Source: Coffea arabica
Lineage: Eukaryota; Streptophyta; Magnoliopsida; Gentianales; Rubiaceae
Direction: 5' to 3'
Assembly: GCF_036785885.1 (NCBI RefSeq)
Contig: NC_092326.1
Span: forward strand, 42,060,287 to 42,124,286
Length of the DNA stretch: 64,000 bases
How positions within the stretch are numbered: the first letter of the stretch is position 1; each line of letters begins with the position of its first letter. The translations under genes were made by a program, and so were the position numbers. Below are positions 3,193 through 51,248 of the stretch, piece after piece. The notes below the pieces were generated by a model that made no database searches, was not told the DNA's origin, and was given only the letters and a program-made list of their open reading frames with translations.

Positions 3193-4440
3193 ATGGCAAC
3201 CCTTCAATCTTCAGCCTTATTGCAATATTCATCACCTAAAATATGCAGAGAACGCACCACCTCAGCGATTCTTGGTATCCCAAAATCAAGGACTAGTAAT
3301 ATCCCCCTCCACAATCTCCAACAAGCTGGACCATTGGTGAAGGAGATGGAGTTGGCTAGAGGTTTCATTGGCCACAAAAAATTTACAAAGAAAAATGATG
3401 AAAATGTGCTAGCGGATTCATTAGTGATGGCAAAGCTTTATGCAGTGTTGGAAGCAGTTGCAGATAGAGTGGAAATGCATAAGAATATTGGAGAGCAGCG
3501 AGCCAACTGGAACAGCCTACTTTTGACGTCTATCAATGCAATTACTCTTGCAGCTTCAACAATGTCCGGTATTGCGGCCACAACTGCGGTTGGAGCCGGC
3601 ACTCCCTTGGCGGCTTTGAAGCTATCTTCCACGATGATGTTTCTCGCAGCAACCGGGATGTTGTTCATAATGAATAAAATCCAACCATCACAACTAGCAG
3701 AAGAACAGCGAAATGCTGCAAGATTGTTCCAGCAGCTGCAAAAACAAATCGAAACAACGATAGCCATAGGCAAACCTACAGATGATTATGTAGAGGAAGC
3801 AATGGAGAGAGTTTTGGCACTTGACAAGGCCTATCCACTTCCTCTCCTTGGTGTCATGCTCGAGAAATTCCCATCTAAAGTAGAACCAGCAGTTTGGTGG
3901 CCTCAACAAGCAAAAGAGTCCGCCCACAAGACGGGTTCAAAAGCGAATGGCTGGAACTCGAAGCTTGAGAAGGAAATGAGATCGATTGTGGAGGTTATAA
4001 GAAGAAGAGATAAAGCAGACTATTTGAGCTTGGGTGGAAAAGCCTTGAAGCTGAACAAATGGTTAGCCATAGGTGGTCCTTTATTAACAGGGCTAGCAGC
4101 CGTGGGCTCTGCTTTTGTGTCTTCTTCTTCTCAAGTTGGTTTCTTGGCAGCCATGCTTGGAGTTGTGGGCGGTTCATTGGCAAGCATTGTAAACACGTTA
4201 GAGCATGGAGGACAAGTTGGAATGGCGTTTGAGATGTACAGGAGCAATGCCGGTTTCTTTAAACTCATGGAAGAATCTATAGAGTCTAACTTGATGGAGA
4301 GACGGGAACATGGTGAATTGTTTGAGATGAAGGTGGCATTGCAATTAGGGAGGAGCGTATCAGAGCTGAGAGATCTCGCAGCTTCTCCAGAAAACAAAGA
4401 AGGAGGTGCTAAGGAGGAGTTTGCAAGCAAACTTTTCTGA
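3193..4440 (+). CDS. At4g22030-like protein, tandem copy 1
   Basis: Intronless gene, 415 aa. It belongs to the plant family usually catalogued as 'probable F-box protein At4g22030-like'; I see no F-box motif, so that name should not be read as function. The N-terminal 40 residues are rich in Ser/Thr and basic residues with few acids, like a plastid transit peptide (inference). Two long hydrophobic, Ala/Gly-rich segments lie at about 108-160 and 289-335, suggesting membrane association. Between them are the conserved stretch NKIQPSQLAEEQRNAARLFQ (161-180) and LPLLGVMLEKFP. The C-terminus EEFASKLF is nearly identical in all three copies. It is the first of a same-strand tandem trio with copies at 6103-7413 and 8598-9878. 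The start is the first ATG after a TATA box at 2988. Biochemical function is unknown. Confidence 0.85.
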   Translation: MATLQSSALLQYSSPKICRERTTSAILGIPKSRTSNIPLHNLQQAGPLVKEMELARGFIGHKKFTKKNDENVLADSLVMAKLYAVLEAVADRVEMHKNIGEQRANWNSLLLTSINAITLAASTMSGIAATTAVGAGTPLAALKLSSTMMFLAATGMLFIMNKIQPSQLAEEQRNAARLFQQLQKQIETTIAIGKPTDDYVEEAMERVLALDKAYPLPLLGVMLEKFPSKVEPAVWWPQQAKESAHKTGSKANGWNSKLEKEMRSIVEVIRRRDKADYLSLGGKALKLNKWLAIGGPLLTGLAAVGSAFVSSSSQVGFLAAMLGVVGGSLASIVNTLEHGGQVGMAFEMYRSNAGFFKLMEESIESNLMERREHGELFEMKVALQLGRSVSELRDLAASPENKEGGAKEEFASKLF

Positions 4441-5862: not shown

Positions 5863-6102
5863 TTCAACCAATTCTACTGTAACAGCTTATTGCGCTACTA
5901 TATCTGCTCTTATGTCTATTGTCCTCTACAGAGACTACAATTACATATATTAAAGTATCAAACACCACCTTCGATCTTACTTCAAACTCAATCAAGATAT
6001 ATATTGTCTGATTTCAGTCATCTACTTAAAATTGTTCACATCACAAAAATACTGCATTGGATTGGGTTGGACAGCCACAAGAGGTTTGCTTTAGAACAAA
6101 CA

Positions 6103-7413
6103 ATGGCATCTCTTCAAGCTTCGGCTTTTATATTCCACTCAACATCACCCTCTCCTTTGTTCAGGCTTCACCAGAAGCGAACCGTAAAGGCGATTCTTAA
6201 TCATGTCACTCAACCGGGGTCATCAAACGGCCACAATGGACAATCGGGGGCGGCGAAGCTGGCCAGGGACTTTATGTCTTTGATCACTGCAACTACTCAT
6301 GATCAGAAACATGAGGCCAGCTCCAATAATAACAGAAAATTGAACAACATCCATGCTGATGCTGATGGCTCTGATGATACTATGATAGTAATGGCAAAGC
6401 TCTATGTAATTGTGGAGGCAGTTGCAGATAGAGTGGTGATGCACAATAATATTGGCCAGCAGAGAGAAAATTGGAACAGCCTACTTTTGGCATCCATCAA
6501 TGCAATAACTCTTGCTGCTGTAACAATGTCCGCTATTGCCGCAACAAGTGCGGATGGTGCCGGTGCTCCTGTTACAGCTTTAAAACTGTCGTCTACTATT
6601 ATGTTTGTTGCAGCAACTGGGATGCTGTCGATAATGAATAAAATCCAACCATCCCAACTTGCAGAAGAGCAACGAAATGCTGCAAGATTATTTCAACAGT
6701 TGCACAATCAAGTCCAAATACTTATAAACATTGGAAATCCTGCTGAAAATGATGTGAAGGAAACAATAGAGAAAGTTTTAGCTGTTGATAAGGCATTTCC
6801 GCTTCCTCTCCTTGGTGTCATGCTTGAAAAATTCCCACGTATGGTAGCACCAGCAGTTTGGTGGCTTCGACAGCAGCCAGGGCAAGCTGAGGAGCTGACC
6901 ACTAAGATGGAATGTTCCAATGGCTGGAACGTAAAACTCGAGAAGGAAATGGAAACAATTCTTGAGGTTATAAGGAGAAAAGATAAAGCAGAATATCTGA
7001 GGCTGGGCGGGAAAGCCTTGAAACTGAACAAAGTGTTGGCTATAAGTGGTCCTGTATTAACAGGGCTAGCAGCCATTGGTTCTGCTTTTACGGGATCTCC
7101 TTCTCATGGGTTTTGGGCAGCTATGCTAGGAGTTGTAGGTGGTGCGTTGGCAAGCATTGTTAACACAGTAGAGCATGGAGGACAAGTTGGAATGCTTGTC
7201 GAGATGTACAGGACCAATGCTGGTTTCTTTCAACTTATGGAACAAACTATAGAATCTAATATGATGAATAAACAGGAAAACGGTGAATTATTTGAAATGA
7301 AGGTGGCATTGCAATTAGGAAGGAGCCTATCAGATCTTAGAGATCTTGCATCTTCCTCTTCTTCTTCCAATGGAGAAGAACATGTCGAGGAGTTTGCTTG
7401 CAAACTTTTCTGA
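6103..7413 (+). CDS. At4g22030-like protein, tandem copy 2
   Basis: Intronless, 436 aa from the ATG at 6103. The frame stays open upstream to 5890, but those 71 residues have no counterpart in the sister copies. The start MASLQASAF aligns with MATLQSSAL of copy 1, so 6103 is preferred. It has the same architecture: a transit-peptide-like N-terminus, then a copy-specific low-complexity insert rich in Asn, Asp and Ala, two hydrophobic Ala/Gly-rich segments, the NKIQPSQLAEEQRNAARLFQ motif and the C-terminus EEFACKLF. It is more diverged from copies 1 and 3 than those are from each other, for instance WWLRQQPGQ where the others have WWPQQA. No F-box is visible. Function is unknown; membrane or plastid location is inferred only from composition. 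Confidence 0.82.
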   Translation: MASLQASAFIFHSTSPSPLFRLHQKRTVKAILNHVTQPGSSNGHNGQSGAAKLARDFMSLITATTHDQKHEASSNNNRKLNNIHADADGSDDTMIVMAKLYVIVEAVADRVVMHNNIGQQRENWNSLLLASINAITLAAVTMSAIAATSADGAGAPVTALKLSSTIMFVAATGMLSIMNKIQPSQLAEEQRNAARLFQQLHNQVQILINIGNPAENDVKETIEKVLAVDKAFPLPLLGVMLEKFPRMVAPAVWWLRQQPGQAEELTTKMECSNGWNVKLEKEMETILEVIRRKDKAEYLRLGGKALKLNKVLAISGPVLTGLAAIGSAFTGSPSHGFWAAMLGVVGGALASIVNTVEHGGQVGMLVEMYRTNAGFFQLMEQTIESNMMNKQENGELFEMKVALQLGRSLSDLRDLASSSSSSNGEEHVEEFACKLF

Positions 7414-8350: not shown

Positions 8351-8399
8351 TTGGTTCAGTGACTTGGTCTAAATGTCTAATAAACCAAAGACCAGAAAC

Positions 8400-8438
8400 A
8401 GTCTAAACAAAGAACCGATTCAAAGGTTGAACTTTAGG
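8400..8438 (+). promoter_or_regulatory. Shared upstream block, tandem gene 3
   Basis: AGTCTAAACAAAG followed by TTCAAAGGTTGAACTTTA, nearly the same as 2915-2958 before tandem gene 1 and at almost the same distance from the TATA box (75 versus 73 bp). Confidence 0.5.
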
Positions 8439-8474
8439 AGCACATTCAAACCTTTCATTGTCAACAGCCCCCTC

Positions 8475-8482
8475 TATATATA
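8475..8482 (+). promoter_or_regulatory. TATA box of tandem gene 3
   Basis: TATATATA 123 bp before the ATG at 8598. It lies inside the upstream extension of the open frame, which argues that the in-frame ATG at 8373 is not the start. Confidence 0.6.
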
Positions 8483-8597
8483 CCATATTGGCATATTCCT
8501 CTTCTCCACCCCTTTGTATCATATCATTTCAAGTTTTCAACAAATACAATTCTCAAAAAAACACTTTGCAACCTCTTCTTCAATCACAAGCACAAAT

Positions 8598-9878
8598 ATG
8601 TCAACACTTAACTCTTCTGGCATCCTACACTCATCTCCCTATTCTGCAGTATCCCCCAGTCCATGCAAGAAAGGCACATTTATGTCTATCTCAAAATCAC
8701 GGACTACAAATATTCAAAATCTCCAAACTAGAGTTTTTGGAGATGAGCTGGAGTTGGGCAGAGATTTGATAATCAAATCTTTGACCGGTACCCTTCTCAA
8801 GAAACAGGCAAACACCATTAGACCTGGTAGAGACAGTGCTGATGAATCAGCTGATTCATTGGTGCTGGCAAAGTTATACGCCATCTTGGAGGCAGTTGCG
8901 GATAGAGTGGAGATGCATAAAAATATTGGGGAGCAGCGAAAAAACTGGAACAGCCTACTTTTGTCGTCCATTAATACAATTACTCTTGCTGCCGCAACGA
9001 TGTCGGGAGTTGCAGCCACAACTGCTGTTGGCAGTGCTCCTGTGGCAGCCTTAAAGATGTCCTCTACTCTAATGTTTCTTGCAGCAACTGGAATGCTATT
9101 GATAATGAATAAGATTCAACCCTCCCAACTTGTAGAGGAGCAAAGAAGTGCTACAAGATTGTTCCAGCAGTTGCATAATGAAGTCCAAACAGTTATAAGG
9201 ATAGGTCATCCCACAGACAAGGATGTAAAGGAAGCAATGGAGAAAGTTTTGGCACTTGACAAGGCCTATCCACTTCCTCTCCTTGGTGTCATGCTCGAAA
9301 AATTCCCATCTAAAGTAGAACCTGCAGTTTGGTGGCCTCAACAGGCAAACGATTCCTCCCACAAGACGGGTTCAAAATCGAATGGCTGGAGCTCGAAGCT
9401 TGAGAAGGATATGAGATCAATCGCTGAGGTTCTAAGGATTAAGGATGAAGCAGAATATCTAAGGCTGGGTGGGAAAGCCTTAAAATTTAACAAATTGTTA
9501 GCCATAAGCGGTCCGTTTTTGACTGGCATTGCTGCCATTGGTTCTGCTTTTGTGGGCTCTTCTTCTCATATTGGTTTCTTGGCGGCCATGCTTGGAGTCG
9601 TGGGCGGCGCATTGGCAAGCATCGTCAACACATTCGAGCATGGAGGACAAATTGGAATGGTGTTTGAGATGTACAGGAGCAATGCCGGGTTCTTTAAACT
9701 TATGGAGGAATCCATAGAATCCAATATGATGGAGAGACGAGAAAATGGTGAATTATTCGAAATGAAGGTAGCTTTGCAACTAGGAAGGAGCTTATCCGAG
9801 CTCAGAGATCTTGCATCTGCTTCTTCTTCTTCAAACGAAGTTGAAGATGTCAATGAGTTTGGTAGCAAGCTATTTTGA
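8598..9878 (+). CDS. At4g22030-like protein, tandem copy 3
   Basis: Intronless, 426 aa from ATG 8598 (MSTLNSSGIL). The frame is open back to 8373 but crosses the TATA box, so the downstream ATG is chosen. It is closest to copy 1: long stretches of the second half are almost identical, including KAYPLPLLGVMLEKFPSKVE and the MYRSNAGFFKLMEESIES region, which points to recent duplication or gene conversion. It shares the Ser-rich, basic N-terminus, two hydrophobic Ala/Gly-rich segments, the IQPSQL motif (here followed by VEEQRSATRLFQQL) and the C-terminus NEFGSKLF. No F-box motif is seen. Function is unknown; a stress-type promoter is hinted at by the TGACGTCA site upstream, which is inference only. 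Confidence 0.85.
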   Translation: MSTLNSSGILHSSPYSAVSPSPCKKGTFMSISKSRTTNIQNLQTRVFGDELELGRDLIIKSLTGTLLKKQANTIRPGRDSADESADSLVLAKLYAILEAVADRVEMHKNIGEQRKNWNSLLLSSINTITLAAATMSGVAATTAVGSAPVAALKMSSTLMFLAATGMLLIMNKIQPSQLVEEQRSATRLFQQLHNEVQTVIRIGHPTDKDVKEAMEKVLALDKAYPLPLLGVMLEKFPSKVEPAVWWPQQANDSSHKTGSKSNGWSSKLEKDMRSIAEVLRIKDEAEYLRLGGKALKFNKLLAISGPFLTGIAAIGSAFVGSSSHIGFLAAMLGVVGGALASIVNTFEHGGQIGMVFEMYRSNAGFFKLMEESIESNMMERRENGELFEMKVALQLGRSLSELRDLASASSSSNEVEDVNEFGSKLF

Positions 9879-19459: not shown

Positions 19460-19881
19460 AGTTAATTACAAAAAGGGGCAACAGCACTCTCATCCTTCTT
19501 AGCTGCTTCTATTAACCATATTGGGAAATCATTTACCCATTCTATGTCATTAACTAGTTTTGTTGCAAAATGTGCTAGCATATGACTTGCTACATTAGTT
19601 GTTCTAGGAACAAAAAAAACTGTGCAATCCTCAAAACCTTGTGTTAATTCCTCAATGTCCTCCAGTATGGTTGCTAGATGACTATCCTGCACATTGTTGC
19701 TTCTGATTTGGTCGGTGACTGTTTTGCAGTCTGATAGGATTGCAATTTTCCTCCAACCTGCTTCTCTTGCCATTTGGAGTGCCAATCTAATGGTTAAGGT
19801 TTCTTTCTTTAGAGCTTCTCCCTTCTTCCTTTCCACTACTCCCTTTGCTCTTAGAATCTATCCTATCCAATGCCTTGCAAT
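19460..19881 (-). mobile_element. LINE relic, RNase H domain
   Basis: Minus-strand open frame of 124 aa with the signature of the plant RNase H-like domain (RVT_3) at the 3' end of L1-type LINEs: ALQMAREAGWRKIAILSDCK, then a region ending NVASHMLAHFATK and a closing FPIWLIEAAKKDE. Upstream the frame continues to about 19881 through HWIG and an in-frame stop (ILRAKGVVERKKGE), then is cut off by the repeat at 19882. Only the extreme C-terminus of the element remains. Confidence 0.75.
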
Positions 19882-20311
19882 TAGGGCTGTTAAACAAAGC
19901 GAACAGCTTGAAAACTTGATTGAGTTCAACTCGATAAGGCTCGAACTCGGCTCATCAATTTTAGTAAACGAGTCGAGTTTGAACTAGAAATTTACTCAAT
20001 TAATTAATGAGTCGAGTAAACTTGAATCGTTTGTTATTCGAGTTACTCGATAAGGAATGACATATATGTCATTTCACAAGTCAAAAGAATAGAATTTGAC
20101 AATGACAGATTTCTATTGTGATCAATTTGCACGACCTGGAGCTCGGCTCGTTTGTGATAAACGAGTCGAGCTTGAACTGAACCTTGAGTCACATGTCCCA
20201 TTTGGCGAGTCGCGTTTGAACACACTTTAAAATTCTTTCGCTTAGTTGAGCGAGTTTGAGCCTGACTCGAGCTAAGCACAAGCTCGAGTCAAATTCGACA
20301 GTCAAATACTA
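19882..20311. mobile_element. hAT-type MITE, GCTGTTAA-end family
   Basis: Begins TAGGGCTGTTAAAC and ends, on the other strand, TAGTATTTGACTGTC. Both halves are full of CTCGAGT/GAGCTCG-type motifs in opposite orientation. The same design, with better ends, is at 40689-41106. Flanking 8-mers (CTTGCAAT, GGCTCAAT) agree in only half the positions, so limits are approximate. It abuts the 5' side of the LINE scrap and probably inserted into it. Confidence 0.5.
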
Positions 20312-25760: not shown

Positions 25761-26337
25761 CGGAATTTAACGAGGAAGAAAGTTATCCAAATTTCAGAGT
25801 GGAAACCGATGAATTGTTTTGCCAAAAAAAAAATATGGAATGCGTGAATTTTATATTGCTGAACTAACTTTCCGAACAACCATTCATGAAAGATCTGCAG
25901 CCGTTGGATCTTGATCAAGAGATTCTTAATCTGAGCCGTTGATTCTCGTGAGCAAGTCGCTTTCACGGGATGCTCGTGTGCGGGAGTGGGAAGTTCAAAC
26001 AGAGGAAGCAAAGAACATTTGAGAGCGGGATTTTGTGCGACGTGACTTATTTGATTAAGATGGGTTGACGAATCTGGATCGTCCGATTTTCATCGGACGG
26101 TGAAGAGAGGGTGAGGTGGGGAAAGCAAGGAGAGTGACGGATAGATTGAGGTAGGTCGGTGACAAGGATTTAGTAGCGTGACGGAAAATGACACCTGGGG
26201 AGATGAAACCGTAACAGACTTAGTGCTTACGTGTCAGCAAAGCAAACAATTGTGGAGTGGATGAGGCTTGCTTGCACGCGACACCTGGCTCTGTTTTGCC
26301 TCTTTTCTGTGTTTTCTCAGCTTCTGGGGTTCAACCG
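25761..26337 (-). promoter_or_regulatory. Leader exon and promoter, aspartic protease
   Basis: Sequence upstream of the leader intron. On the minus strand AACGGCT occurs twice about 40 bp apart (plus-strand AGCCGTTGG near 25898 and AGCCGTTGA near 25936), each next to a GATC- or GATT-type string. AACGG is a MYB-type core. No unambiguous TATA box was found, so the transcription start is not fixed. Confidence 0.4.
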
Positions 26338-27146
26338 TTTTTTTTTTTTTTCCAACCGATAACAGATTCCACTCAAATCATAAAATGTTTACATCACTTT
26401 GAGCAACTGCTCCTACATCAATGTTGGTTAACCGAAGCAGCCAGCTAGGAAAAGAATTTCTCCAATCAATATCAACAACTAAGTTTAAGGCAAACCTTAC
26501 CAAAGAATGAGACACCACATTGGCATTCCGTTTGACAAAAAAAAAAATGCAATTCCGAAACTCTTTCTTCAGATGCAGGATGTCAAATAACACAGCACTG
26601 GCCTGAGGATCCTCCACCCTTTCCAATTTGATCTTCTCAACCACACTTTTACAATCGGATTGTATAATTATGTCCCTCCACCCACTCTTCATGGCTATGG
26701 GCATACCCTTCCTAATAGCTCGAGCTTCCTCCACCGCAGGATCCCCACACCTTTGTTCACTCCCTGCCCAGGCTCCTAGTAGCTTACCCCTACTACATCT
26801 GGCTACCACACCCTAGCCAATTTTGCCATCCTTATGACTCAACGCGGCATCAGTGTTCAGACAAATGAAGTGTTGGGGTGGTGGTGACCACTTCCCTGCT
26901 CCATAGACTTCCTCCTGTTCATCATACTCCTGCCCATCCACTTCATTGAATACCTCAGCATATTCCCGTCACTCTTGCATAGTCTTACCCACCACAATTC
27001 CAGGACATTTCCGATCATTATTAAACTGAATTTGATTTCTAGATTTCTAAATTTGCCACAGTATATTAACCATCAGTTCAATATGGGTCCTATCTTCCGT
27101 TCTTGCCTTAGCCTCCACCAAAGTAGTCCACCAATGCCAAAAATTA
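26338..27146 (-). mobile_element. LINE relic, 3' part (to poly-A)
   Basis: Minus-strand remains of an L1-type LINE. Reading 5' to 3' on that strand: NFWHWWTTLVEAK, NILWQI then a stop, KSRNQIQF, a spacer, KWSPPPQH, CLNTDAALSHKDGKIG, and the RNase H domain (GVVARCSRGKLLGAW, IIIQSDCKSVVEKI, FFVKRNANVVSHSLVRFA). Several stops interrupt the frame. After the last stop it ends in a run of A (T at about 26339-26353 on the plus strand), the expected LINE tail. The 5' side is cut at 27146 by the Helitron, and the same LINE resumes at 32454. Confidence 0.85.
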
Positions 27147-27289
27147 TCAACATATATAGAATAAGAGCGAGTTGGTCTGAGGCTCTTGTTTTCGTCGACC
27201 CTCGTTTTCGTCGGCCCTCGTGCTGTTCCGCGCGTGCCATCGTCGTCCTCACGTGACCTTTAGTTCTCGTTTGTTTAGCACCTTGCACT

Positions 27290-27870
27290 GGCTTCTCCTC
27301 TCTTCTCGTTGTCATTCTCTCTATTTCTCTTTTCCTCTTCCTCTAGGGTTAGATACATTCTCAGACTTTGTTTCCTCCTCCGCCGCCGCATCGTCTCCCT
27401 CTCCTCTCCTCTTCTATATCGGCTCGTTCTCTACCGTTTCTTCTTCTGTTTTCTTATTTTTTAGTTTTCCCGTCTTTTTCTTTTCTCGTCTCTGCATCCG
27501 TTCACTCCTCCTCCTCCTTCTCCACCGCCACACCGTCTCCTTCTCCTTATCTGTTATTTCTATTTCTCTTCTCTCCTCTAGGGTTAGATGCAACTTCAGA
27601 GTCTGTCCCTCTATTTCTTGTCTCCTCCTCCGCCGACACACTGTCTCCGTGTCCTTTTCTATCGGCTTCTTCTCTACCCAATATCAGAGATCTATTTTGC
27701 TCAACCAGCCCTAGGATTCCCCCCCTTCGCCTTCCTCCGCTTTTTTTAACCGTTTTTTCTTCTGTTTTTCCCATTTTTTTCCTTTTTCCGCTTTTTCATC
27801 CGTTCACTCCTCCTCCTCCTCCACCACTACACCGGCTCCCTCTCCTTTATCGGCTCCTTCTATTCTACGC
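27290..27870 (+). repeat. Pyrimidine-rich diverged repeats in Helitron
   Basis: C/T-rich DNA in which CTCTAGGGTTAGAT recurs (27342, 27577), and a longer piece with CATCCGTTCACTCCTCCTCC recurs (27496, 27798). The composition resembles a plant 5' UTR that has been amplified. Long open frames exist on both strands but are only Ser/Leu- or Arg/Glu-rich low complexity. Confidence 0.65.
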
Positions 27871-28186
27871 CCAGGATTATGGGTTTCCCTTCTCCTACCA
27901 GTCCTAGGATTTCTCTTCTGCCTCCCTCCTGTTCAGGTTCATTCTCGCCGGATCCTCTCTCAGCCATTGGGAGCACTTTGAAATCCGCTGCAAGCTCTTC
28001 ACTATCCTCGGCATCTCTTACTGCATTATTTTGAAGTATTTGCTTCTGTGAAACGTTGAAGAAAAAGTTAAAGATATGTTGACTACAACTCGGTTTCAAA
28101 TTATATGTAATTGGATTTTTTTATTTGTTATTTGTAATATATTAAAAATTAATTGCTTCCTGATTATTTTGTCATGCCTTGAGTAG

Positions 28187-28269
28187 ATTGAGGCAATTTT
28201 CAGCAACAACAAGGTGTACAATGCGGAGATGATTGTTGTGATGGCCAGTCGAAGTTCAAATTACTGCTT
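28187..28269 (+). pseudogene. Exon-like piece A in Helitron
   Basis: 83 bp between TAG and GTAAG splice signals, open in one frame: IEAIFSNNKVYNAEMIVVMA then SRSSNYC. Not recognised. Phase does not connect cleanly with the next piece, so it may come from a different gene than the others. Confidence 0.35.
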
Positions 28270-29579
28270 GTAAGATTTTTCTCCAAATATATTTTTTTAT
28301 CTGGTTTTCTTTTAATTTGCAGAATTAGGTAACATTTTCCCAACGTATATCTACAAGCTCATTACTCATTTCTTTTTTCTTTCTCTAATTTCTGTCATCA
28401 TAAGAAAAGGATTATTATAACAATGACTGACAAACCGTCCTTGCTTAGAGGAAACAGAGAAAGGAAACAGTTAAAGCAAAAAAAAAAAAAAAGTTGAAAA
28501 AATTATACACTTTTTTACTCTAGGCTGACTTATGATGTACTTCCTGCGCCTAAGTGTACCAACCTGAGACTAAGTGTATCAACATGAATTGATATAGTTG
28601 ATGAACATGTTCTGTTATTCAATCAAAGCAGCTTTTAAATGTGATTGGATATACCTTTCCAGCAAAATGAAGTTCTTTCATGTCAAGAATTGAATGAGAT
28701 TGAAACAGGTAGACCTTGATAATTGTCTACTACATGAGGGTTTATATGTGTAGGTATGTTTTTGAATGTCATCCGAAACCTGGAGGTGGAAGGGACATTG
28801 TCTACTTCGTGAATTAAATTGGATTTCATCTTATTTAAGTGCTGCATATATATTTATCCACAACAAAGAGATTATTGTTTACCAGTTATTTATTGGAAGT
28901 TGGCAACTTTGGCCTTTATGTGTTTTTCAGGTTTTGTTAAGAAGGAAAATCAATGCCAAGAATCATTACTGGTGGACCTATCTTTTCTTGATTTATTATA
29001 TGTTGAATGATTGAGTTGGATCTATTACAATTATCTATTGATTGAATACCTTTAGCTTTTTGCCAGGTTCTGTGTCAAAACTGATTTTAATTTGTAGCTA
29101 TGGTACATTTGCTACTTGAGGTTGTGATGGTTATGTCTATGTGTGGGATGGAAGCAATAAAAAAAGCTGTATCAATTATTTTTCCTTAACTGAATTTGAA
29201 ATGTCTTCCGCTCCATGATGACAATGTTCACTCTTGTTCAATGTACAGTGCTCAAAATGCCTAATAAGCATCGCAGTCTTGTCATTCAGCAGAGAAACCA
29301 TAGATAGTGTGTACAAACTAGGAATTCATTGGTTATTTATATCCTGTAAATTTCTTTTTTCAGAGAAAAAAAAATTAATTAAATTTTTCAAAAAAAATTA
29401 ATGGTCCCTCTATCCACTTTGATAACAAAATTAATTAATTTTTCCTAAATTGTTGGGTTGCAATCACTTGTTTGTGCCAAGTTCTAAATAATTATATAGT
29501 GTGTGTACAGACTAGGAATTCATTGGCTAAGCAGTAGGAATTCACTGGCTAAATTTATACTCTATGATTTACATTGTAG

Positions 29580-30331
29580 GTTCAACAAGCCTTTGCAGAC
29601 TTGGAGAGGTGATTTTCCATTTGAAAAGATTGTCTATCCTTAGTTCCAGCTTTATTTTATTATTGCTAACTGTTAACTAAAATTTTCATTTGATTTTTTT
29701 TGGGTTTCCAATGGCTTCCTTGAAGATCTGTAATTTATCTTCCTTCATTCTTGGCTATTATTCCTTTCCTTGCATGCTGCTTATTAATTTTTTTCTGTGC
29801 TGCCTTTGAACTTTGGATGGTATAAAAATTGCTGAAAGGCTTTCTTTTGAGGAATGTTTGTTTGGCTAAATAATATATTGTTGCTGGGAATTGGCCAGAA
29901 CTGTCAAATGAATTTCTTTTTAACATTTTCTTCTACAAATATTCTTGATGAGAGCTAAAAAGTTTGTCAGCTCGAAACTAACTGATCTTTCAGCAAAGTA
30001 GTTGTTTTAGTATGCACGATTAGGATTGATCATTAGATATTAGCAAAAGTAACTTATTTGATGCAGTACTGATAGGTCAAATCCTTGCATGTGTTATTAT
30101 ATGTAAAACATCTAACAATCGAAGCATATTTGTTTTGCTGCCTAAGATATACGGTCATGTTGACATCTTGCATAGCACGTATTCAGGTTGAGTTATTGGG
30201 TCAAATGAATGTTTAAGTTTCACAGTTTGAGGTACCTCCTCTTATATGCTCTGACCCAAGGGCTAATCATGATATTTTATCTATTTACCTGCAGGGGCCG
30301 TGGATATCTTGTTCCAGACGATGTCTACAAG
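29580..30331 (+). pseudogene. Exon-like pieces B and C in Helitron
   Basis: Two short pieces with flanking AG and GT: 29580-29608 and 30295-30331. Joined they stay in frame (GAGAG plus GGGCC) and read VQQAFADLERGRGYLVPDDV then YK. The phase match across 686 bp of intron-like sequence supports a shared origin in one captured gene. Source gene not recognised. Confidence 0.4.
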
Positions 30332-30870
30332 GTTATAGTACTGTTTACTATGATTGTTAGGTGTAAGTTTCACAATACAATTGGATAAATGTTTGAGTTC
30401 TGGTGATATTCTTTTATTTACTCATGAGGTGATCTGAACTGCACCCCCCCCCAAAAAAAGTTAATTAAGATGGAGATTGAGCAAACTTCATGTATGTTAC
30501 CTTCTATTTTATATACAATCTCCAGTTTCTCTTAGAATGGTGAAGATTTATATGCATATAGCAAACCTGTTACCTTTGAAGTACTCTGATGCTCAACTGA
30601 TTTGTGTTTTTTAATGATCTGAACAGTGTGTGTTTCGATGATTTGACACTCAACCGATTTGTGTCTTAATGATCTCACACTTTGACACTCAACTGATTTG
30701 ACATGTTATCTAAATCTCCAGTTTCTGAACACTTATCATGATCTGTGTTTTAATGATCTGAGGGTTCGGAGCCAACTTGCATTTGATGTGCTCTGACTAA
30801 TTTTTACCTAGAGTTTACTTGTGCTTTATGGGCTCTGCCTAATTTTTCCCTTTTCAATTGTAATTTGTAG

Positions 30871-30947
30871 AGTTTTGATCAGAAGAGGAGTGGAAGATTC
30901 AGACTGGATGGCTTCATATCACTCTGTATATTTGTACAGTCTGCGCG
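30871..30947 (+). pseudogene. Exon-like piece D, EF-hand-like, in Helitron
   Basis: 77 bp after TTGTAG and before GTAGG, reading SFDQKRSGRFRLDGFISLCI then FVQSAR. The pattern (Asp-x-Lys/Arg-Ser-Gly-Arg followed by a DxFI helix) resembles the EF-hand and linker helix of penta-EF-hand proteins (PDCD6 or sorcin type). It is one exon only and cannot make a working protein. Identification is by memory of the family and is moderate at best. Confidence 0.4.
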
Positions 30948-31574
30948 GTAGGTGGAATCTTAATTTCTTATACGGTGTATTTTGATTGACCAATTAGAGT
31001 TATTAGCTTCATGAAAATGTCAGAAAAGTACCTTGCTGAAGGTATTAAAAAATGTTGTGCTCATAAATCATTTATCATTGATGTAGTCAGTTGCTTGTAA
31101 ATCCCTTGCTTACTTTAAGCTGTGAGGGCTGGATTCCGAAATTTGTATCTGTTTGTGAACTTCTTTAGAGACCATTAGACTATGAATCTAGGCTGTTTTT
31201 CTTTCTTATTTCTGATTATTTGATTGTCTAAACCAGCAAAACCTATCCATTCACTATATACAGTGTGTACAGACTAGGAATTCATTGGTTATTTCTTTTT
31301 GTTTCAGGTTTTGACAAATGCTGTTTTATATCCTGTAAATGATGTTCTTCTGCGTTTGGTTCTTTCTGCAAGATGTTACTTTTACTTCGGTGTGTTGTGT
31401 ACCAAGGCATCTTTATAAGTTACTTGTGTAAGGGCTGTTTTAAATGATTACACTTATTCTTCTTGAATGATTTTGAATGCTTTTGACTGAATAAATAATG
31501 TGTACAGACTAGGAATTCATTGGTTATTTGTGCTTATGCATTTTATGATTATGTTTCTGATTTTTTTGCTGCAG

Positions 31575-31610
31575 AATGCTGAACTGAGTGCTCATGTGGC
31601 TAAGCAGTAA
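31575..31610 (+). pseudogene. Exon-like piece E with stop in Helitron
   Basis: After TGCTGCAG the sequence reads NAELSAHVAKQ and a TAA stop. This looks like a last coding exon. It does not join piece D in frame (that join gives a stop at once), so a missing exon or a second donor gene is implied. Confidence 0.3.
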
Positions 31611-32424
31611 AGAGGAAGGAATCTACTGTCCCGTGTTAGGCATGCATGTCGTTGGATTATGAGTACAGTTTCGTTGGATATTTTTTAGTTAATGTGTATT
31701 ATGTAATTATAGTTGTTGGAGGACTCAAGCACAGAAATTATGTAATAGCTAGGTTGTTACTATTGTTTATCGCTTCAAGCTTTGATAATGGACTTATCAA
31801 GCTTTAATAATGAATGTACTTCGGTTACCTTAGTTTGATGTTAAGCTTTGATAGTAGATGTTTGAACGGAATGTACTTATTAGCTTTTGATGTTTAGCAA
31901 TAAAGTTCATGCTAACTTTGGTTACAAAAAAACACGCGGCTGCTTTTTATCCATTTTGACTACAGGCCTGAATAGCATTTTGATTAGTTCATAACTTTGG
32001 TTACATCAGAAGCCACGGGTGATGAATCTAAAAAGATATAGCACCAACTTACAAAGCTTCAACCTGCAAGTTATTAGGTTTTCTGAAAATGTAGAGAATA
32101 CCTCGCTTTATAGTTTGTGATTTTACTATCCAGTGCAGCAGCCAGGTACATTATCATCATCGTTGCCAAATTCATGTAATGCAATGGATTTGAAGTCTTT
32201 GCATTGCCTTGAAGTTTAATGGACTTTTGGATTATCAACCTTAATCTATATAGCTCAATGATATTTTTCTCTCTGTCAACTGCCATGCATATTCATACTG
32301 ATGTACAAAAAAAAAAAAAAAAAAAAAGAACTTGCATGCAATGTTGGATAAAAGAAAAATGCACCAAAATTCAATCACTTCCTTAATTCGCATATTTGGC
32401 AGGGCATATTATCTTTAGTCGCCT

Positions 32425-32453
32425 ACGCGCATCGCGCGTTTTATACCTCCTAG
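32425..32453 (+). other. Helitron 3' hairpin and CTAG terminus
   Basis: Six-bp stem ACGCGC/GCGCGT with ATC loop, 10-nt spacer, then CTAG and host T. This is the replication terminator structure of Helitrons (known). Confidence 0.85.
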
Positions 32454-32710
32454 TTCCTATAAACGTTGAGACCGTCCCAACAGATGGGAGTTGCCTTCCA
32501 AATTTGCTTTGCATGCTGGCAAAAAAACAACATGTGTTCCAACATGGGTTCAACCGTTTTGATCATGCTTCTTCATGCCACGACCACGACATATCTTGTT
32601 TAGTATTACTAATAGGTTTTCCAAAATAAGAAAAAAAAAATATTGCCAGATGTGTGTTTGGTTGGGGGAATCACCTCTCCACAATTTTTGTTTTTTAATA
32701 AATAAAAATG
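32454..32710 (-). mobile_element. LINE relic, 5' part (zf-RVT region)
   Basis: Continuation of the LINE at 26338-27146 on the far side of the Helitron. On the minus strand one reads LWRGDSPNQTHIWQ, NLLVILNKICRGRGMKKHDQ, then after a frame change VEPMLEHMLFFCQHAKQIWK and WDGLNVYRN at the Helitron junction. This is the zinc-binding region between reverse transcriptase and RNase H in plant L1-type LINEs. The reverse transcriptase itself is not visible further on, so the LINE was 5'-truncated. Confidence 0.75.
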
Positions 32711-35345: not shown

Positions 35346-36386
35346 AATAGATATTGTGTTTGTTTGCGTAGTAAAAGCATCACAGTCATTACCTTTGTAG
35401 TAACTATGAAGATTGGAAGTGTAACAAGGTGATTAGTGATCTAGACCATGGTAGAAGAAGCCAGTCAGCTACAGCAAACAAACTGAAGAAAAGAGTGAAG
35501 TGAAACGAGCTGGCACATCGCTATCAAAAGCTTTAATCCATTGTCGGTGCTAAGCGGCAAAGTTAAGTATCAGAGGATGAAGAAAAGGGTGAAGTGAAAG
35601 GAATGAAGATTAAAGACTTTTCGCCGACGGAAGTCAGTCGCCCACCTTCGTCGTAGCTTTTGTGTCACCTTTGCGCATCATCTCTTAAGTTAAATGCTTA
35701 CTGGTACATTTTGGCTTGCAGTTTGGAATTATAACCAAGCTAAAGCATTAGAAGATAAATAACCTAACAATTTATGGTAGCATGCTTTGTATTAGTTGAT
35801 GTATCAAAAGGTATATTAAATTGGATGCGTTGGATTAATCTATCATAATCACATTTTAGTCGCAAAAGTGTTTGGATTGCAATTTTCTACCAAAAAATTT
35901 TTACGTTTTCTACGAGCACATTTTCTAATCGCTTTTTAACCTTATAGATATCAAATCGTTACAGTATATTTACCAACAAAAAAACTTCAAAAAATAGCAA
36001 TCCAAACAGAATTGTCAATTGGTTCAATGATATCTGTAACTTTGATGTTATTATAATATATTTTGACATATACAACAATACTAGAGAGTTTGACGTTCAT
36101 TAAGAAATTTCTTACGAAAATTAGATACTCAAATATGTTCGTGTCGAGTGTTTGGAAGGGAGATTATTTGAAATATTATTCAAAATAATTACTATAATAC
36201 TTTTTATGATGTAATGCATGTGAGATAAAATAGTTGATGGGAAGATAAAAAGTTGATTGAAAATCATAATTGTGATGCTAGTAATATTTAAGAAAATTTT
36301 TCTAACCAAACTTGAATAATATTTTGAAAGTCCACACACACACACACACATATATATACATATATATATATATGTATATATATGTG
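35346..36386. other. Intergenic with one small MITE
   Basis: No gene seen. Contains copy 1 of the GTGTTTGGATTGC MITE family (35868-36008) and ends in a CA/TA microsatellite at about 36333-36394. Confidence 0.55.
35868..36008. mobile_element. Small MITE family M1, copy 1
   Basis: GTGTTTGGATTGCAATTTTC at the left, AGCAATCCAAACA at the right. The interior carries the family core ATCAAATCGTTACAGTA. Related copies: 39380-39513, 41603-41750, 46794-46941 and 50258-50380. Confidence 0.75.
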
Positions 36387-40688: not shown

Positions 40689-41106
40689 TAGTGCTGTTAA
40701 GCTAGCCGAATATGTGGCTGCCGAGCTTTACTCGAGTTTAATTCGAGCCTAAACTTGAGTCAAGCTCAATCTTGCTCGACTAGGCGGACAAGCTTTGAAA
40801 TGTGTTCGGACTCGGCTTGCCAAATAGGACATGTGGCTTGAGCTCGTGTAAATTGACCCTAATAAAAATCTATAATTTTTAATTTTTATATTTTTGAATT
40901 GTGAAATGACATATATACCCTTCCTTATCAAGCCTAATCAAGCTACTCGGATAACAAACGAGTCGGGCTTATTCGACTTGTTAATTAAATGAGCATATCT
41001 CGAGCTCGAACTCGATTCGTTTATCACAATTAACGAGTCGAGCTCGAGCCTTATCGAGTCGAGCTCAATCGAGCCTTCGAGTTGCTCGTTTCATTTAACA
41101 GCTCTA
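40689..41106. mobile_element. hAT-type MITE, GCTGTTAA-end family
   Basis: 418 bp beginning TAGTGCTGTTAAGC and ending, on the other strand, TAGAGCTGTTAAATG. Flanking 8-mers CTTATAAG and ACTATAAG agree at six of eight positions, a slightly decayed target duplication. Subterminal CTCGAG/GAGCTC motifs are dense. Same family as 19882-20311. Confidence 0.72.
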
Positions 41107-43293
41107 ACTATAAGATGACTTAAAATTACGAAGTTAAATACTTGGGCTTGAAGAAGCTAGAGAAATTTACTCTATGAAGAAACACAATTCAGAACCTTAA
41201 TTCCTGTTATATTTGATAACTTTGGCAATGAATTTAAGAGCATAGGAAACAGAACTATATCGTGATGTCCAAATCATAAGGTTTCAAGTAAATAAATCAA
41301 CGTTCCGCTAACCTTATTTTATTGTGTTTCCTCCCCTCTTATGGAGAGATATTTTCTTGTGGTTTTTAGTAAACCAGAGCACTCATTAAGATACATGTTT
41401 AAGTTACACCTAATTTATCATATTTACCAGTTGAATACACATATTTAGATTTATTAGGAATGCTCTCCTACAATTGAATACATTCTCAAATTAGTTTTGC
41501 TCTTGTTAAAATATTAACACTTGAATTTATGTAACCTGAATGCCAGGGAGTACTTGATTAGCCAAGCCCTAACTCCTTAGCCTGACAACTTAAGGAAATT
41601 TCGTGTTTGGATTGCAATTTTTTTAGAGTTTTTATAAAAAAAAAAACGTACTGTACCGATTTGATATATGTAAAATAGAAAGATAATTAGAAAATGTGTT
41701 CACGAAAACATTGAGTTTTTGTTTTTTTGTGGAAAATCCCTTTCCAAACAGGGAAGAAAAAGCAGTTCCTATCTCCATTTGGATTAAAAGGGGGAGATGA
41801 GATTGACTTGCAAATGAAGGACAACAATGACCGCTAACTTGTTGGCTAAGCAATGGCATGGTTACCCAATTATCAGCAATCCTTGTTAAGCCAAAAGAAT
41901 TCCACATTCAACTTCACCAAAACTGCTTTTCGATTGATCAATATAAAGAGTTTTTATCTGATACCATAGCTCTTGATGATAGGAAGCATCAAAGGCTTGC
42001 AGCAGCCATAGGGCGACTCTTATCTTGGAATTACACGGGAAGTAGCTTTTTAGGATCGAGTTGAAGAACATAAATAGACGGGGTCCCATTCCGAAGAAAG
42101 AAGAGAACTTAATGGTAGATTTTTTTTGCGCACATATCAAAATCATCAATTACGTGTCACGATACTTTTCCACGCATTGTCATTTGAGTTACAGTGATCA
42201 TTTTGATATTTCCCCTTTCCGGAGAAAATGAATCATAACCCCTTCACTTACACAAGGATAGTTGCAAACAAGTCAAAGAAGATGATCTTTTCAATTTCCA
42301 ACTTTATTATTAGGAATTGCGGCATTAGTTCTTTCTTTTCAAGGCATTAGAAGTATAGTTCTTGATGATGATCTTATCAGATAAAATTTTGGTCCCCTCG
42401 CTGGTTTGGCCAAAGTAGGCCATTCACTTTTCCCTTGTTTTTTTCCAACCAAGATTTCTTATAGCGTTGATTTCAGGCATTCCTTGGGAATGAAATCTCG
42501 TAAAAAATTAAAAGTTTTGCGTTCAAATCTTTGATCCCTCTTCTCTACTTTCTTAAATCTCATTTTTTTTTCTTTTATTAAAAATAATTTTTAAAGAAAT
42601 TCAAAACTTTTTTTAAAATTATTCATTATTGTGGGATTGATAATACAGCTCAACCATTGTCTCCATTCAGAGACGTAAACCTAATCAACGAGATGCATTC
42701 ATTATCCCCCCACGAGAATCGTGCTTTAAAGAATCATCAAAAGGAGCTGCCATGAGGTCTCTTGTGGTCTACTCCATCTCCGTCAAGTCTATCCAATTGC
42801 GTGTCAAAAATAATGGCCGTAGTTATTGACCGGCGACCACTCCTCCTACCGAATCAGAATATACCTGTCGCTTTTCACGCGTCTGATTATCCGTTTCTTC
42901 TTCGTCGACTACTTCTTCACACAGTATTTTCTTCGCCCGCAGATATTTAATAAACCAAATAGAAAGCTGAAATAACATAATTCAAATTCACTCCGAGTAA
43001 CGCGCAATTGCTCTTGGCGCTTCATTCTTCCTGGGTTCTACGGTACTTACTGAAATTCAAATAAAATTTTATCACTACAGAAAGTGGCAAAAAACGAAAT
43101 GAAGAAATTTTTTTTAATATGTTCCAACATTTTCCTCTGCAGGCCCGGACCTAAAAAACTAAAAAATATGAACATGTTAACTATGTTCAGCCAAAATACA
43201 TGTGAGGGAAAAAGGAACAAGAAAGATTAGACAAAATTAATTAACATTAAATATCTCCACAAAAAAAAGCAAGAAAATGGAAGCCTCTTGAAA
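41107..43293. other. Intergenic downstream of WRKY gene
   Basis: No gene seen. Contains MITE M1 copy 3 (41603-41750). A SINE-like string with GCGTTCAAATC near 42519 followed by T-rich DNA is too degraded to call. The last part is probably the WRKY 3' UTR. Confidence 0.5.
41603..41750. mobile_element. Small MITE family M1, copy 3
   Basis: Begins GTGTTTGGATTGCAATTTTT and ends TTTCCAAACA. The interior has ACCGATTTGATATATG, i.e. the family core in the opposite orientation. Confidence 0.65.
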
Positions 43294-45590
43294 TTAATTC
43301 CCAGGAAAATTGGCAGTTGGCGGTGTTGATGTGGTTGGATTACTATTGTTGCTGCTGCTGGGATGAGAACCACCAATGATAGAACTGATAGCAGCTGCAA
43401 GGGCCGCGGTGAAGTTGGGATCAGCCGTGATCGCGGCCGTGGCAGCGCTAAGCGTGTCAGCGAATGATGGCTGGTGCTGTCCTTGTTGCACCTGTGGATG
43501 TTGCCCTTGGTTTTGCATTTGTGCTGCTGCTGCTGCTGCAGCTTCAATGTCCTGGGACACTTGGAGACCAGAAAACTTGGATTGATTGTACAATGCTTGG
43601 CCAAAAACCTGATGCATTTGTGGGTTAGCCACCGGAGGAAAGTTCTGGGGAGGGGTTCCAAAAGGAAGCTGAAATGGGGTGGAGGGTTGTCTTTGGAATT
43701 GTAATGGATTTGGAGTTTGAGTAAGGTCTAGTGTGACTGTTGGAAATGGAGCCGAGGCTGAAATTGTTGCCATGTTAGATGAGCAAGGTAGAATGGTTCT
43801 TGCTAGAAAGTTGGGATTCATCAGTCCATCGGCACTTGACATGGAGCCCGAAAGTAGCATATTCGCGGCTGCAGACGTCGTCGAAGCCATCGCCATGGCC
43901 GCCGGAGGAAGCGGATGGTTGTGAGTACCTTCGTATGTTGTTATTAGGACAGTTCGGTCCTCAGCACACCTCTGAACCTGGAATTGAATATATAATTCAT
44001 TCATAAATATTATAGCCAGTGCAGATCTTGAAATTGGAAACATGCTTGCTTATCGTTTGATCAAAATAAATGCTTTCTTGGTGTCTAAATTCTAGTAATT
44101 TTTTTTACGTACCTGTTTGCGCACTGGACAACCAACAGCCATGGTGCACCGGTAGTAAGCACGCGGACACGGATTTCCTTTGGCCATCTTTTGTCCATAT
44201 TTTCGCCATTGGCATCCATCAGTAATCTGTATTCCATTTTGATCAAATTGGTTTAGTAAACAAATCAATCCTCACATGTACTTAATATCATCAGCTTGAT
44301 CATCGTTAAGGATTGTATCATGAATTACCATGGGAGCTTCTGATCGGGCTCGAACAGAAACACGAGCTTTCCTCATGGTAGCTTCGGCTTGAGCATGATC
44401 AACAGTCTTCGATGGTGCGTTTAGTTTGGCAACTTTGTTGGGAGCCCAGCCTTGTGACTCGGGGCTTTCTTCCCTACCAACTCCTTTATTCCTAGACAGT
44501 TCCATATTATTGCGGGGTGATCCGGAAAGGGTTCTCTCCTCAGACGAAGAATTGGTTGGCTCGTCCATCTCGGCTGTGCCACTAGGGCCCAAGTCCAAGA
44601 ATTGTCTTGGAACTACAACTCCTCCATTTTCAGGTTTATTTTCTTCAGATTTCCTCTCTCCAATCTGAATGATGCAAAATTTATTCAGCATCCCAAAATT
44701 AACAGTGAAAAAAAAAATCCATATCTGATTGAATATTATATCGAATTAACAGTAAGACAAATCTACCTCATGGTCCTGTGTGGTTTGGGGTTTGGCATTC
44801 TGTTGTTGCTGGTGCATCAATGTCATGAGGTGCATTTGCAGGGCAGTGTAATTGTTGCTAACCTGACTTAGCATCTCTCTCAACCTTCGATTTTCAGCAT
44901 TCATTCTTTCAAGCTCCACTTGAAGCTGAGCCAGCTGAATTAATTATGCAAAACAGGAAATTATTATCCAAACGTGAAAGCTAATATAACTAAATCACCA
45001 AATTAGACTTGAAACATCATTCAGTCGATAAGAAAGTTAATTGTCACCCTCTTACCTCAAGCTTAGCCCTTTTATCTTCAATATCTGATGAAACTCCATC
45101 ATCCACCGTGGATTGATCACTTCCAGTGTTCGCGATAACAAGTTGGAGGCCAGTCTATACAGGGCAGAATATATCAGATTAATGGGATTGGATAATAATT
45201 TCACCAGATATATCAGATTAAGACAGACAAAAAAAAAAAAAAAGTACTACTGTCTTGTGGGATGCTTACATTTACAACATCCATGTTAGTCTTCATCTTG
45301 TCTTCACCATGACAATCTTCTTTCTTGATCAGGATATCATTAGCCTTCTTCTTGTCCGAAAAGAAGTCAACTTCGCCTACAACAACCCTCTTCTCACCAT
45401 CGGACGAAGCAGCAGCGTGCGAGTCTTCCCGGCGGTTCTGATTGGCCAAAAACTCGGTGGCCGGAAACATACTCAGACTACCCTTGCTAGGATTCAACCT
45501 AGGACTCAAATTGAATCCAAAAACCGGCTTATTTCCAAAAAATCCTATTTTGTCAGGATTATCTACGGTTACGCCCCATCCTTTGTCCAT
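43294..45590 (-). CDS. WRKY transcription factor, group IIb
   Basis: Six coding exons: 45590-45270, 45154-45056, 44934-44767, 44664-44329, 44226-44113 and 43977-43294. All introns are GT-AG and in phase; product 573 aa. WRKY factors bind W-boxes (TTGACC/T) in defence, senescence and nutrient-stress genes. The motif WRKYGQK is at 315-321 and the zinc finger C335-X5-C341-X23-H365-X-H367 is complete. The intron after VRKQ (346) is the 'V-type' position of groups IIa/IIb; the length, [14 protein letters not shown] before the domain and [18 protein letters not shown] near the end fix IIb (AtWRKY6/31/42 clade). A leucine-rich coiled coil lies at 141-176 and a seven-Ala/Gln tract near the C-terminus. 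The ATG at 45590 (MDKGWG) is preferred over one 18 bases upstream because the family starts MDRGWG or similar. Intact. Confidence 0.95.
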
Positions 45591-46793: not shown

Positions 46794-46941
46794 GGCCTTG
46801 TTTGGATTGCAATTTTTCGCCGAAAAATTACGTTGTTTTCCGTGATCACATTTTTCTATTACCTTTTTTTCTCGCATACATCAAATCGCTACAGTATTTT
46901 TTTCCATGAAAAATCATGGAAAATGCAATCCAAACACAGCC
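46794..46941. mobile_element. Small MITE family M1, copy 4 (best ends)
   Basis: GGCCTTGTTTGGATTGCA at the left and, on the other strand, GGCTGTGTTTGGATTGCA at the right; 148 bp. Contains ATCAAATCGCTACAGTA. The ends resemble Tourist/PIF-type MITEs, with TAA on the right flank, but a clear 3-bp duplication is not certain. Confidence 0.75.
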
Positions 46942-48598: not shown

Positions 48599-51248
48599 GA
48601 TGCGTAGTTTTGCGGAGAAAAAAAAAAACTAGCTTACAGTGCCATTCAGACCTTTCCTTCCTGTCTTCCAATTCAGTCAGATACTACTAAATATCTGCCA
48701 ACTTGCTCTTGCATTTATTTTTTTGGATTTCTTTAAACCCCAACAGATGATGAACCACCAAATAGGAGAGAAATGTGACTTGTGCTATGAGGCACTTTTA
48801 TTATGGTAGGTTCCCTTCTAGATAGACGAGCGAGTTACTCTGCAATTACTCTTGCACCGAAAAAGCCAACGCACAATACGAGTATACAAAGACTTGGAGA
48901 GACAAGACAAAAAATGAACATTTATGGTAATTAAACGGACCACAATCTCTAATTAACGAAACAAGACGAAGGAGAAAAAAAAAAGGGAGCAAGTGGGAGC
49001 CAGAATAGACAGAGAGTCGATGGCTTCTGAACAAGTATGACCAACCAGGGCGTCTCGTGGAAAAAGTTTCACGTTAATTTGACCTTTCAATAAGTACTAG
49101 CATTTTGCCGTGACTAAGACGCGATAATTTGCCTCAATTTGACAATTTGGATGACAGTCAGGAGAAGCTGCTGTACCAGTCGCCATTAAGTTCAGACGGA
49201 AACATCAACGTTCATTAAGTTATGAGGTTTTGAGATCAAGAAACTCCTCCTCGATCTTCAGACAGGAAATGCCTTAAAAGATAGTAAAAAAGACTCGAGT
49301 TTTAGATATATCATCTGATCTTTGGTCCTCGGCAAAAGAAACATATTTTGCCAAAGTATTCTTTTGTTTATGGCCATCCAAAGCGTGCTCTCCTGTCGGC
49401 TGGATCCTGTGTAGTGTGTACTTTGTATCCTTTTCGGGATCTTCAAAGAAAAGGGCCCCGACCAAAATGTGGAAAAGTTAAAAAAGAAAACGAAAACAAA
49501 TCTCCTTGTCTTGTTTGCACGGTGAACAGAATAACAAGGCGCCGCGCCTCGCCTCACCTACTTAGTTGGAGGATTCTACTGCCCGCCTTAGTTTATGTTC
49601 TTTTAATCTTTTCTTGATTGCTTAGGTTTGAAAATTCTCTCCACTGTCAAGTTTGGAAATCGAATTTTGGGTTTATCTTCGGCTGATTTGGGTAGGAAAT
49701 AGAGAATCGTGGTTTGACAGGCTATAGAATTCATAGGATTTGAGTTTTATTAGCTTTGCTGCAACCAACCAAAAAGCAACTGCGGCCATCAGGCACACGC
49801 GTTTTCATGGGATCAGGTTAATAATAATACTAGTTTGTAAACACCGCTTGGCCCTTTATTTTGATTATATACTCCAGAAGCAATGGACAAAAACTCTCGG
49901 GTGACCCAATCTCTTGTCGTAGTATTGAAAACTATTATTCAAGAAGTAGCTGGCGGTTCTTTGTTTTTGAATGTGGAAACATGATATGATCTCGCGGTCA
50001 GCAGATGCAGGTAATAGGTTGTCTGGCTGTGACCATCGTGGGGTTTCTTACGTCAAAGATGTGAGGCTCCCTTTTTCTTCCTCCATCCAACTTTCAAGTC
50101 AAGCACAATGACCCTACACGGCTCCGGCGGTCTCCATTTGCAGCTATTGTGTGAGGGAAGTCTTTCTTGGTCATTTGTCTTCCTCTTTTTCCACGAATGC
50201 TCCAAAAATAGTACTAGTATTTGCATTTAAAAGAAAACTGGAAGTACCGAATTAAACTTGATTTTTTGTCGAAAAATTGTGTCGTTTTCGTGATTTTATT
50301 TTTTTATTATCTTTTTTCCTCACATATATTAAATCGTTACAGTAATTTTTTTACAAAAAAATTCAAGAAAATCCAATCCATCAAAAAAGGGAAACAGGAG
50401 AGAAAGACTAAGAGGGAGGATCTCTTGGTGCGATTTAGATGTCGGTTCAAGTAGCAAAAATTTTTAATGCATTTTTTAAAATATAAATTGACTTGTTTGA
50501 AAAAAAATATGTTGAATTTCTTCCTTGTAATGAAAAGAAATTTTAAATGAAAAAGTCTTTATAGGAAGTTTCCTCCAATAATCTTCTCAATATATGTAAC
50601 AAGCTACAAATTGAAGGACCGGATGATAGTAGCAGGATTATTTTACAAATACATTAGATGGAGAATTTAACTGCTGGATCAATTATTTCTCTGTTCTTTA
50701 AGTCCTGCCTTTGAATTACTTTTCGATTTTTTCTTAAGATGGGTCAATATGCCAGGTCTTCATCATACGATGTCATGAGTTGATTACCCGTTTTCAAGTG
50801 ACGATAACGCATGAAATCAGTGTCCAGATTTTCAAGAACCGCAAAAATTTCTTGCTGGTGGGGCTTATCTAAGCTCATCATCTATCTACATAATTGCTTA
50901 TTCACCAGTTGATATATTTTAAAAAGTTTCTAATATTTTGACGTGTCATTTTTTAAGATTATTGAATTATTTTATTCCTTAATAAATTTAATTCATTATT
51001 ATCTACTGATTATATGTTATTTAAATCCCTATATAGCACGTACGGGACATAAGTTCAAATGTCTAAATCCTTACCCTTTTTTTTTTTCTAAAATTTAATT
51101 TGTTTTTGATCACTTGTAATTTTCGTCCATAAATAATTGGATATAAATAAAGCTAGTTAGTGTATAAGGTAATGTGTTTTTTTTTTTTTATCAAAAAAAA
51201 AATCAGTTAAGACGTAAGAGAATAATCGTGCTAATTAAGTAACAAAAG
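48599..51248. other. Gene-free stretch
   Basis: No gene recognised. Small open frames at about 49258-49617 overlap on both strands and match nothing known to me. Contains MITE M1 copy 5 at 50258-50380. Confidence 0.5.
50258..50380. mobile_element. Small MITE family M1, copy 5 (partial)
   Basis: The interior GTCGTTTTCGTGATTTTATT and ATTAAATCGTTACAGTA match the family core; right end AAATCCAATCCA. Left terminal repeat weak. Confidence 0.6.

Follow-up and report, generated by a model that had tools for sequence, protein, structure and literature searches.

A 5.3-kb Helitron-like insertion nested within a 5′-truncated LINE relic in Coffea arabica

One class of plant L1-type long interspersed nuclear elements (LINEs) carries a C-terminal RNase H domain. 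The canonical Helitron, as set out in PMC6591975, begins with 5′-TC, ends with CTRR-3′ (mostly CTAG), inserts at 5′-AT-3′, and lacks terminal inverted repeats, with a GC-rich hairpin of 16–20 nt located 10–15 nt upstream of the 3′ end. Experiments on a bat Helitron (PMC4778049) indicated that AT targets within AT-rich sequence are preferred and that the 3′ hairpin acts as a terminator. The average Helitron lengths given in PMC2575219 are 441 bp in rice, 950 bp in Arabidopsis, and 4,616 bp in maize, and the same source reports that gene capture by Helitrons is common in maize and rarer in rice and Arabidopsis; maize Helitrons with multiple captured pieces are described in PMC3288121. Here, we analyzed 64,000 nt of the Coffea arabica genome (RefSeq assembly GCF_036785885.1, contig NC_092326.1, positions 42,060,287–42,124,286 of the forward strand), hereafter termed the window, to which all positions below refer. 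Between positions 26327 and 32560 of the window lies a locus that is best read as a plant L1-type LINE later interrupted by a non-autonomous Helitron, a reading to which we assign a probability of roughly 93%.

The minus-strand reading frame of the LINE is broken by a 5,307-bp piece at positions 27147–32453 (+ strand). At the left break (27146/27147; ...AAAAATTA/TCAACATATATAG...), this piece opens with TC directly after an A, while at the right break (32453/32454; ...TTTTATACCTCCTAG/TTCCTATAAACG) it closes with CTAG (nt. 32450–32453, + strand) directly before a T of the LINE. When the two flanks are joined, the minus-strand frame is continuous through the joint (VYRN-NFWHWW, within ...GLNVYRN/NFWHWW...), which bears out the original prediction that the LINE parts are in frame once 27147–32453 is removed; the TC after A and the CTAG before T that it had also described were confirmed at both junctions. 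In a slide test, the insertion could be shifted by 1 bp rightward and 0 bp leftward, and hence any target duplication is limited to 1 bp. Terminal inverted repeats are likewise lacking: when the last 30 bp were reverse-complemented and compared with the first 30 bp, only 11 positions of the 30 agreed, and the leading run of identical positions was 0. The target, seen with the insertion removed, reads AAAATTA^TTCCTAT.

Close to the 3′ end of the inserted piece, site scanning and folding identified a hairpin (ACGCGC-ATC-GCGCGT; nt. 32425–32439, + strand) with a perfect 6-bp stem, a 3-nt loop, and 83% GC. It spans 15 nt and is separated from CTAG by 10 nt and from the end of the element by 14 nt, in keeping with the hairpin that had been predicted near this end. 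Folded as DNA, the 41-nt 3′ end reached −7.1 kcal/mol (z −2.8), with equal stability seen in 2 of 200 shuffles. As a candidate 3′ end we then counted any CTAGT whose hairpin, spaced 5–13 nt away, had 6 bp or more and a GC content of 50% or higher. Such a configuration was found at 2 of the 96 CTAGT sites on both strands of the window, where 40 first-order Markov simulations gave an expectation of 0.35 per 64 kb (both strands), and the trinucleotide ATC has a frequency of 0.016. Within the element, on either strand and irrespective of the following base, the CTAG at 32450–32453 is the sole one with a qualifying hairpin. By chance, a hairpin and CTAGT would be very unlikely to coincide with the very point at which a coding frame is interrupted while A/TC marks the other break. 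Elsewhere in the window, a second CTAGT with a 6-bp, 50% GC hairpin 8 nt upstream occurs at 44582 (− strand), and may be either another Helitron 3′ end or a chance occurrence.

The interrupted LINE lies on the minus strand in two parts, a 3′ part (nt. 26352–27146) containing the RNase H-like domain and a short 3′ untranslated region (UTR), and the 5′ end of the truncated copy (nt. 32454–32545), which is an open frame in phase with the former. From 32545 to 32454, the minus strand reads MLEHMLFFCQHAKQIWKATPICWDGLNVYRN, the last codon of which lies across the joint, and the same frame resumes from 27146 downward as NFWHWWTTLVEAKARTED.... The copy is 5′-truncated and comprises 887 bp without its tail. 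Its joined conceptual protein matched a single domain, Pfam RVT_3 (PF13456; RNase H-like), with an E-value of 1.8e-23 over residues 128–250, covering profile positions 1–123 of 123. While the first base of the normal stop codon is at 26380, three premature stops occur before it (first bases 27049, 26971, and 26815), and the copy is therefore a relic.

Two features typical of L1-type insertion are present at the ends of this relic. The poly(A) tail (nt. 26338–26351, − strand) appears as 14 T on the plus strand, the first four of which fall within the left copy of a 15-bp direct repeat (GGGTTCAACCGTTTT; nt. 26327–26341), with an identical right copy at 32546–32560. In a search of both strands, this 15-mer occurred only these two times in the window, and its expectation in 250 bp under a first-order Markov model is 2.5e-7. 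The two copies bracket the whole nest, with the left copy adjoining the poly-T and the right copy starting immediately after the last LINE base, and we interpret them as the target site that an L1-type element duplicated on insertion. Since the right copy occupies 32546–32560, the LINE ends at 32545, and the DNA at 32561–32710, to which the original prediction had extended the LINE, was already in place before it arrived.

Because the LINE duplications enclose both elements and the Helitron interrupts the LINE frame, the LINE was inserted first and the Helitron second. This order had been proposed from the nesting, and the duplications and poly(A) lying outside the nest now show it independently of the reading frame. 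The reverse nesting order was ruled out on the same grounds, the LINE target duplications being external to both elements. The two copies of the duplication are identical at 15/15 positions, a length too short for dating the insertion.

A second LINE relic is present in the window at 19477–19887 (− strand), with an RVT_3 match (E=1.2e-16) and 40% identity to the first relic over 137 residues (143–279). We noted that the match of this second relic starts beside a repeat (nt. 19881–20137) that recurs in inverted orientation at 40841–41107 with 76% identity. Outside the window, relatives of the LINE were sought in viral contigs (1 pattern-matching stretch, 0 confirmed) and in prokaryote genomes (16 pattern-matching stretches, 0 confirmed), an outcome expected for a plant element.

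The interior of the Helitron is heterogeneous. Its first 750 bp (nt. 27147–27896, + strand) are pyrimidine-rich, with 69–80% C+T in 250-bp bins, and look like captured 5′-leader DNA. This region also contains imperfect repeats between 27315 and 27847, spaced 108–316 bp apart, and two TAGGGTT motifs (nt. 27344 and 27579). The longest open stretch in the element is 184 codons and is itself pyrimidine-rich. No match to Rep/helicase was found in the 9 open stretches scanned of 66 (at least 35 codons each), nor in 4 interior peptides, and on the strength of this partial scan the Helitron is probably non-autonomous. A true lack of this protein would place the element among the non-autonomous Helitrons and would not remove it from the class. 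One interior stretch showed a sub-threshold similarity to DUF5788 (E=0.063; 13.4 bits, the cut-off being 25), which we took as chance.

Further into the element, three exon-like pieces were recognized on the plus strand: piece a (nt. 29580–29608; VQQAFADLE plus a partial codon; gtag before, gtgatt after), piece b (nt. 30295–30331; GRGYLVPDDVYK; gcag before, gttata after), and the EF-hand-like piece c (nt. 30871–30947; SFDQKRSGRFRLDGFISLCIFVQSA; gtag before, gtaggt after). All three have AG immediately before them and GT immediately after, and a check of splice sites and frame gave an in-frame join of VQQAFADLERGRGYLVPDDVYKSFDQKRSGRFRLDGFISLCIFVQSA. The best solved-structure match of this join was a homologue of PDCD6 (whole-sequence E=0.037, best single stretch E=9.4), and PDCD6 or a homologue accounted for 10 of the 18 rows up to E=10, the other eight being S100A10 (2), a calmodulin-related protein, sesquiterpene synthase (4), and a ribosomal protein; the joined pieces had no Pfam match. 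Tentatively, and drawing in part on general background, we regard the three pieces as a captured, PDCD6-like EF-hand gene fragment that has kept its introns. Further exon-like pieces lie near 28187–28269, 28754–28817, and 31575–31610, with no Pfam match to the first two when joined. In addition, a 42-nt repeat around GTGTACAGACTAGGAATTCATTGGTTATTT is present in four copies in the Helitron (nt. 29297–29338, 29491–29532, 31253–31294, and 31488–31529), three of which are 76–90% identical to the first, and all of which lie outside the recognized exon-like pieces. A literature search returned no report joining Helitron, EF-hand, and captured gene fragments, which is not proof of novelty. It is conceivable, if rather doubtful, that the Helitron is a transcribable chimera, in which the pyrimidine-rich TAGGGTT leader would represent a captured promoter/5′ UTR driving a spliced transcript of exons from multiple host genes (the EF-hand included), with the chimera having spread to many loci in this plant.

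From this anatomy, a plausible course of events can be proposed. An L1-type LINE would have been copied into the site by target-primed reverse transcription, leaving its 5′-truncated copy and poly(A) tail between the 15-bp duplications. A probably non-autonomous Helitron later entered this copy at an AT dinucleotide, separating its two bases, and would have done so by rolling-circle or peel-and-paste transposition with a RepHel protein presumably supplied in trans, and with the 3′ hairpin and CTAG likely serving as the terminator. Its arrival added 5,307 bp and left the target unduplicated. The interior, being host-gene-like DNA with introns, would have been captured at the DNA level before the element landed here, and the element itself presumably belongs to a multi-copy family.

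Several observations weigh against this reading. Up to E=10, no Pfam family was matched by the 31-residue LINE piece to the right of the Helitron, nor by the 75 residues spanning the joint, and a search within the window for a LINE homologue spanning the joint found none, with the second relic being limited to residues 143–279. The last 27 bp of the element, allowing up to 3 mismatches, were found in the window in this copy alone, and the identity of the putative EF-hand fragment is weak. The hairpin, at 15 nt, is one under the 16–20 nt stated in PMC6591975. Moreover, a markedly strong 3′ hairpin is reported in just 9 of 35 maize Helitrons in PMC2575219, which doubts its role and notes little evidence for it, and the hairpin is thus weaker evidence here than it appears. 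Lastly, the ends of the element fit 0 of the 4 patterns printed in PMC3288121 for maize helA and helB and, by this end-pattern test, the element is neither of the two.

The 5.3-kb piece might instead be filler DNA that entered a double-strand break in the LINE by copying or ligation, with Helitron-like ends arising by coincidence. While the lack of a target duplication, the gene-like interior with introns, and the lack of a second copy of the last 27 bp within the window (up to 3 mismatches) would all suit such an origin, it requires A/TC at one break and a hairpin with CTAG/T at the other to coincide at one exact position, when the 3′ configuration has an expectation of 0.35 in 128,000 strand positions and ATC a frequency of 0.016. 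The frame also gives no sign of LINE bases having been lost, and break repair without base loss is unusual. We consider filler DNA scarcely credible as a source of the piece. Two other classes of transposon were ruled out, namely terminal inverted repeat transposons, as there is neither a target duplication nor a terminal inverted repeat, and long terminal repeat elements, as none of the direct-repeat families listed (20 of 23) spans both ends of the element.

The identity of the older element can also be questioned, as the RNase H-bearing relic might be a retrocopy of a host-gene mRNA made by the LINE machinery. The RNase H-like domain is the only part that is recognizable, and any L1-mediated retrocopy could show the tail and the duplication; set against these points, the second RVT_3 relic at 19477–19887, with its 40% identity, is what would be expected of a repeated family. 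The piece upstream of the domain (...LEHMLFFCQHAKQIW...) we take to be like the zinc-finger region that precedes RNase H in plant LINEs, which Pfam did not confirm. Overall, we give a host-gene retrocopy only a slim chance. A further possibility, compatible with a Helitron nested in a LINE, is that the interior of the Helitron is composite, containing nested elements or insertions of later date. Such a history is suggested by its heterogeneity (the pyrimidine-rich first 750 bp and the four scattered copies of the 42-nt repeat) and by several exon-like pieces not obviously from one gene. Yet no internal element boundary was seen among the repeats listed (20 of 23 direct families and 20 inverted pairs), neither strand of the element has another CTAG end with a 6-bp hairpin, and multiple captured pieces are already described for maize Helitrons (PMC3288121). 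We hold a composite interior to be unlikely, while keeping it in view as an addition to the preferred reading, a LINE interrupted by a Helitron.

Beyond the nest, the window contains three related tandem open frames on the plus strand (nt. 3193–4440, 5890–7413, and 8373–9878), which share 78–83% DNA identity over ~1 kb. Of these, the first (E=1.6e-150) and the third (E=1.9e-152) were scanned, and both match PF14476, ‘Petal formation-expressed’. The window also encodes a protein of the wall-associated-kinase type and gave a partial WRKY match that falls just short of the curated cut-off; judged by these genes, the host would be a flowering plant. Also noted was a dispersed family of short repeats (nt. 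35869–36008, 41603–41750, 46799–46937, and 50300–50380; matched copies 70–76% identical), possibly a miniature inverted-repeat transposable element. Rfam gave 0 matches in the window at the gathering score.

Both elements follow well-known rules, making this a real but ordinary case that changes no general view. Its value lies in its junctions, as the continuity of the frame and the outer target duplication together fix the Helitron ends to within 1 bp without recourse to other copies, and such cases help to calibrate Helitron annotation, where 5′ ends are often uncertain (PMC6591975). With plant L1-type LINEs, the relic shares an RVT_3 domain near the C-terminus, a short 3′ UTR, a poly(A) tail, a 15-bp target duplication, and 5′ truncation. 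Unlike complete elements of this type, it is reduced to 887 bp with three premature stops, and neither a reverse transcriptase nor an endonuclease remains.

With regard to the Helitron, the termini, AT target, hairpin spacing, and lack of inverted repeats agree with the rules given in PMC6591975, as the original prediction had claimed for the ends, and the AT-rich site is consistent with the AT preference of the bat Helitron (PMC4778049). An exact search for the 29-bp 3′ end in viral and prokaryote collections, where none were expected, gave 0 matches. The element shares with the non-autonomous, gene-carrying plant Helitrons (maize helA/helB, rice, and Arabidopsis) its TC and CTAG termini, a GC-rich hairpin lying ~10 nt ahead of the CTAG, an A/T insertion site left unduplicated, and gene-like contents; in the stretches scanned, a transposase gene was likewise not found. 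Its 5.3 kb is long compared to the rice and Arabidopsis averages and near that of maize (PMC2575219), and a Helitron of this length with gene-like contents may thus be somewhat uncommon outside maize, yet is unsurprising.

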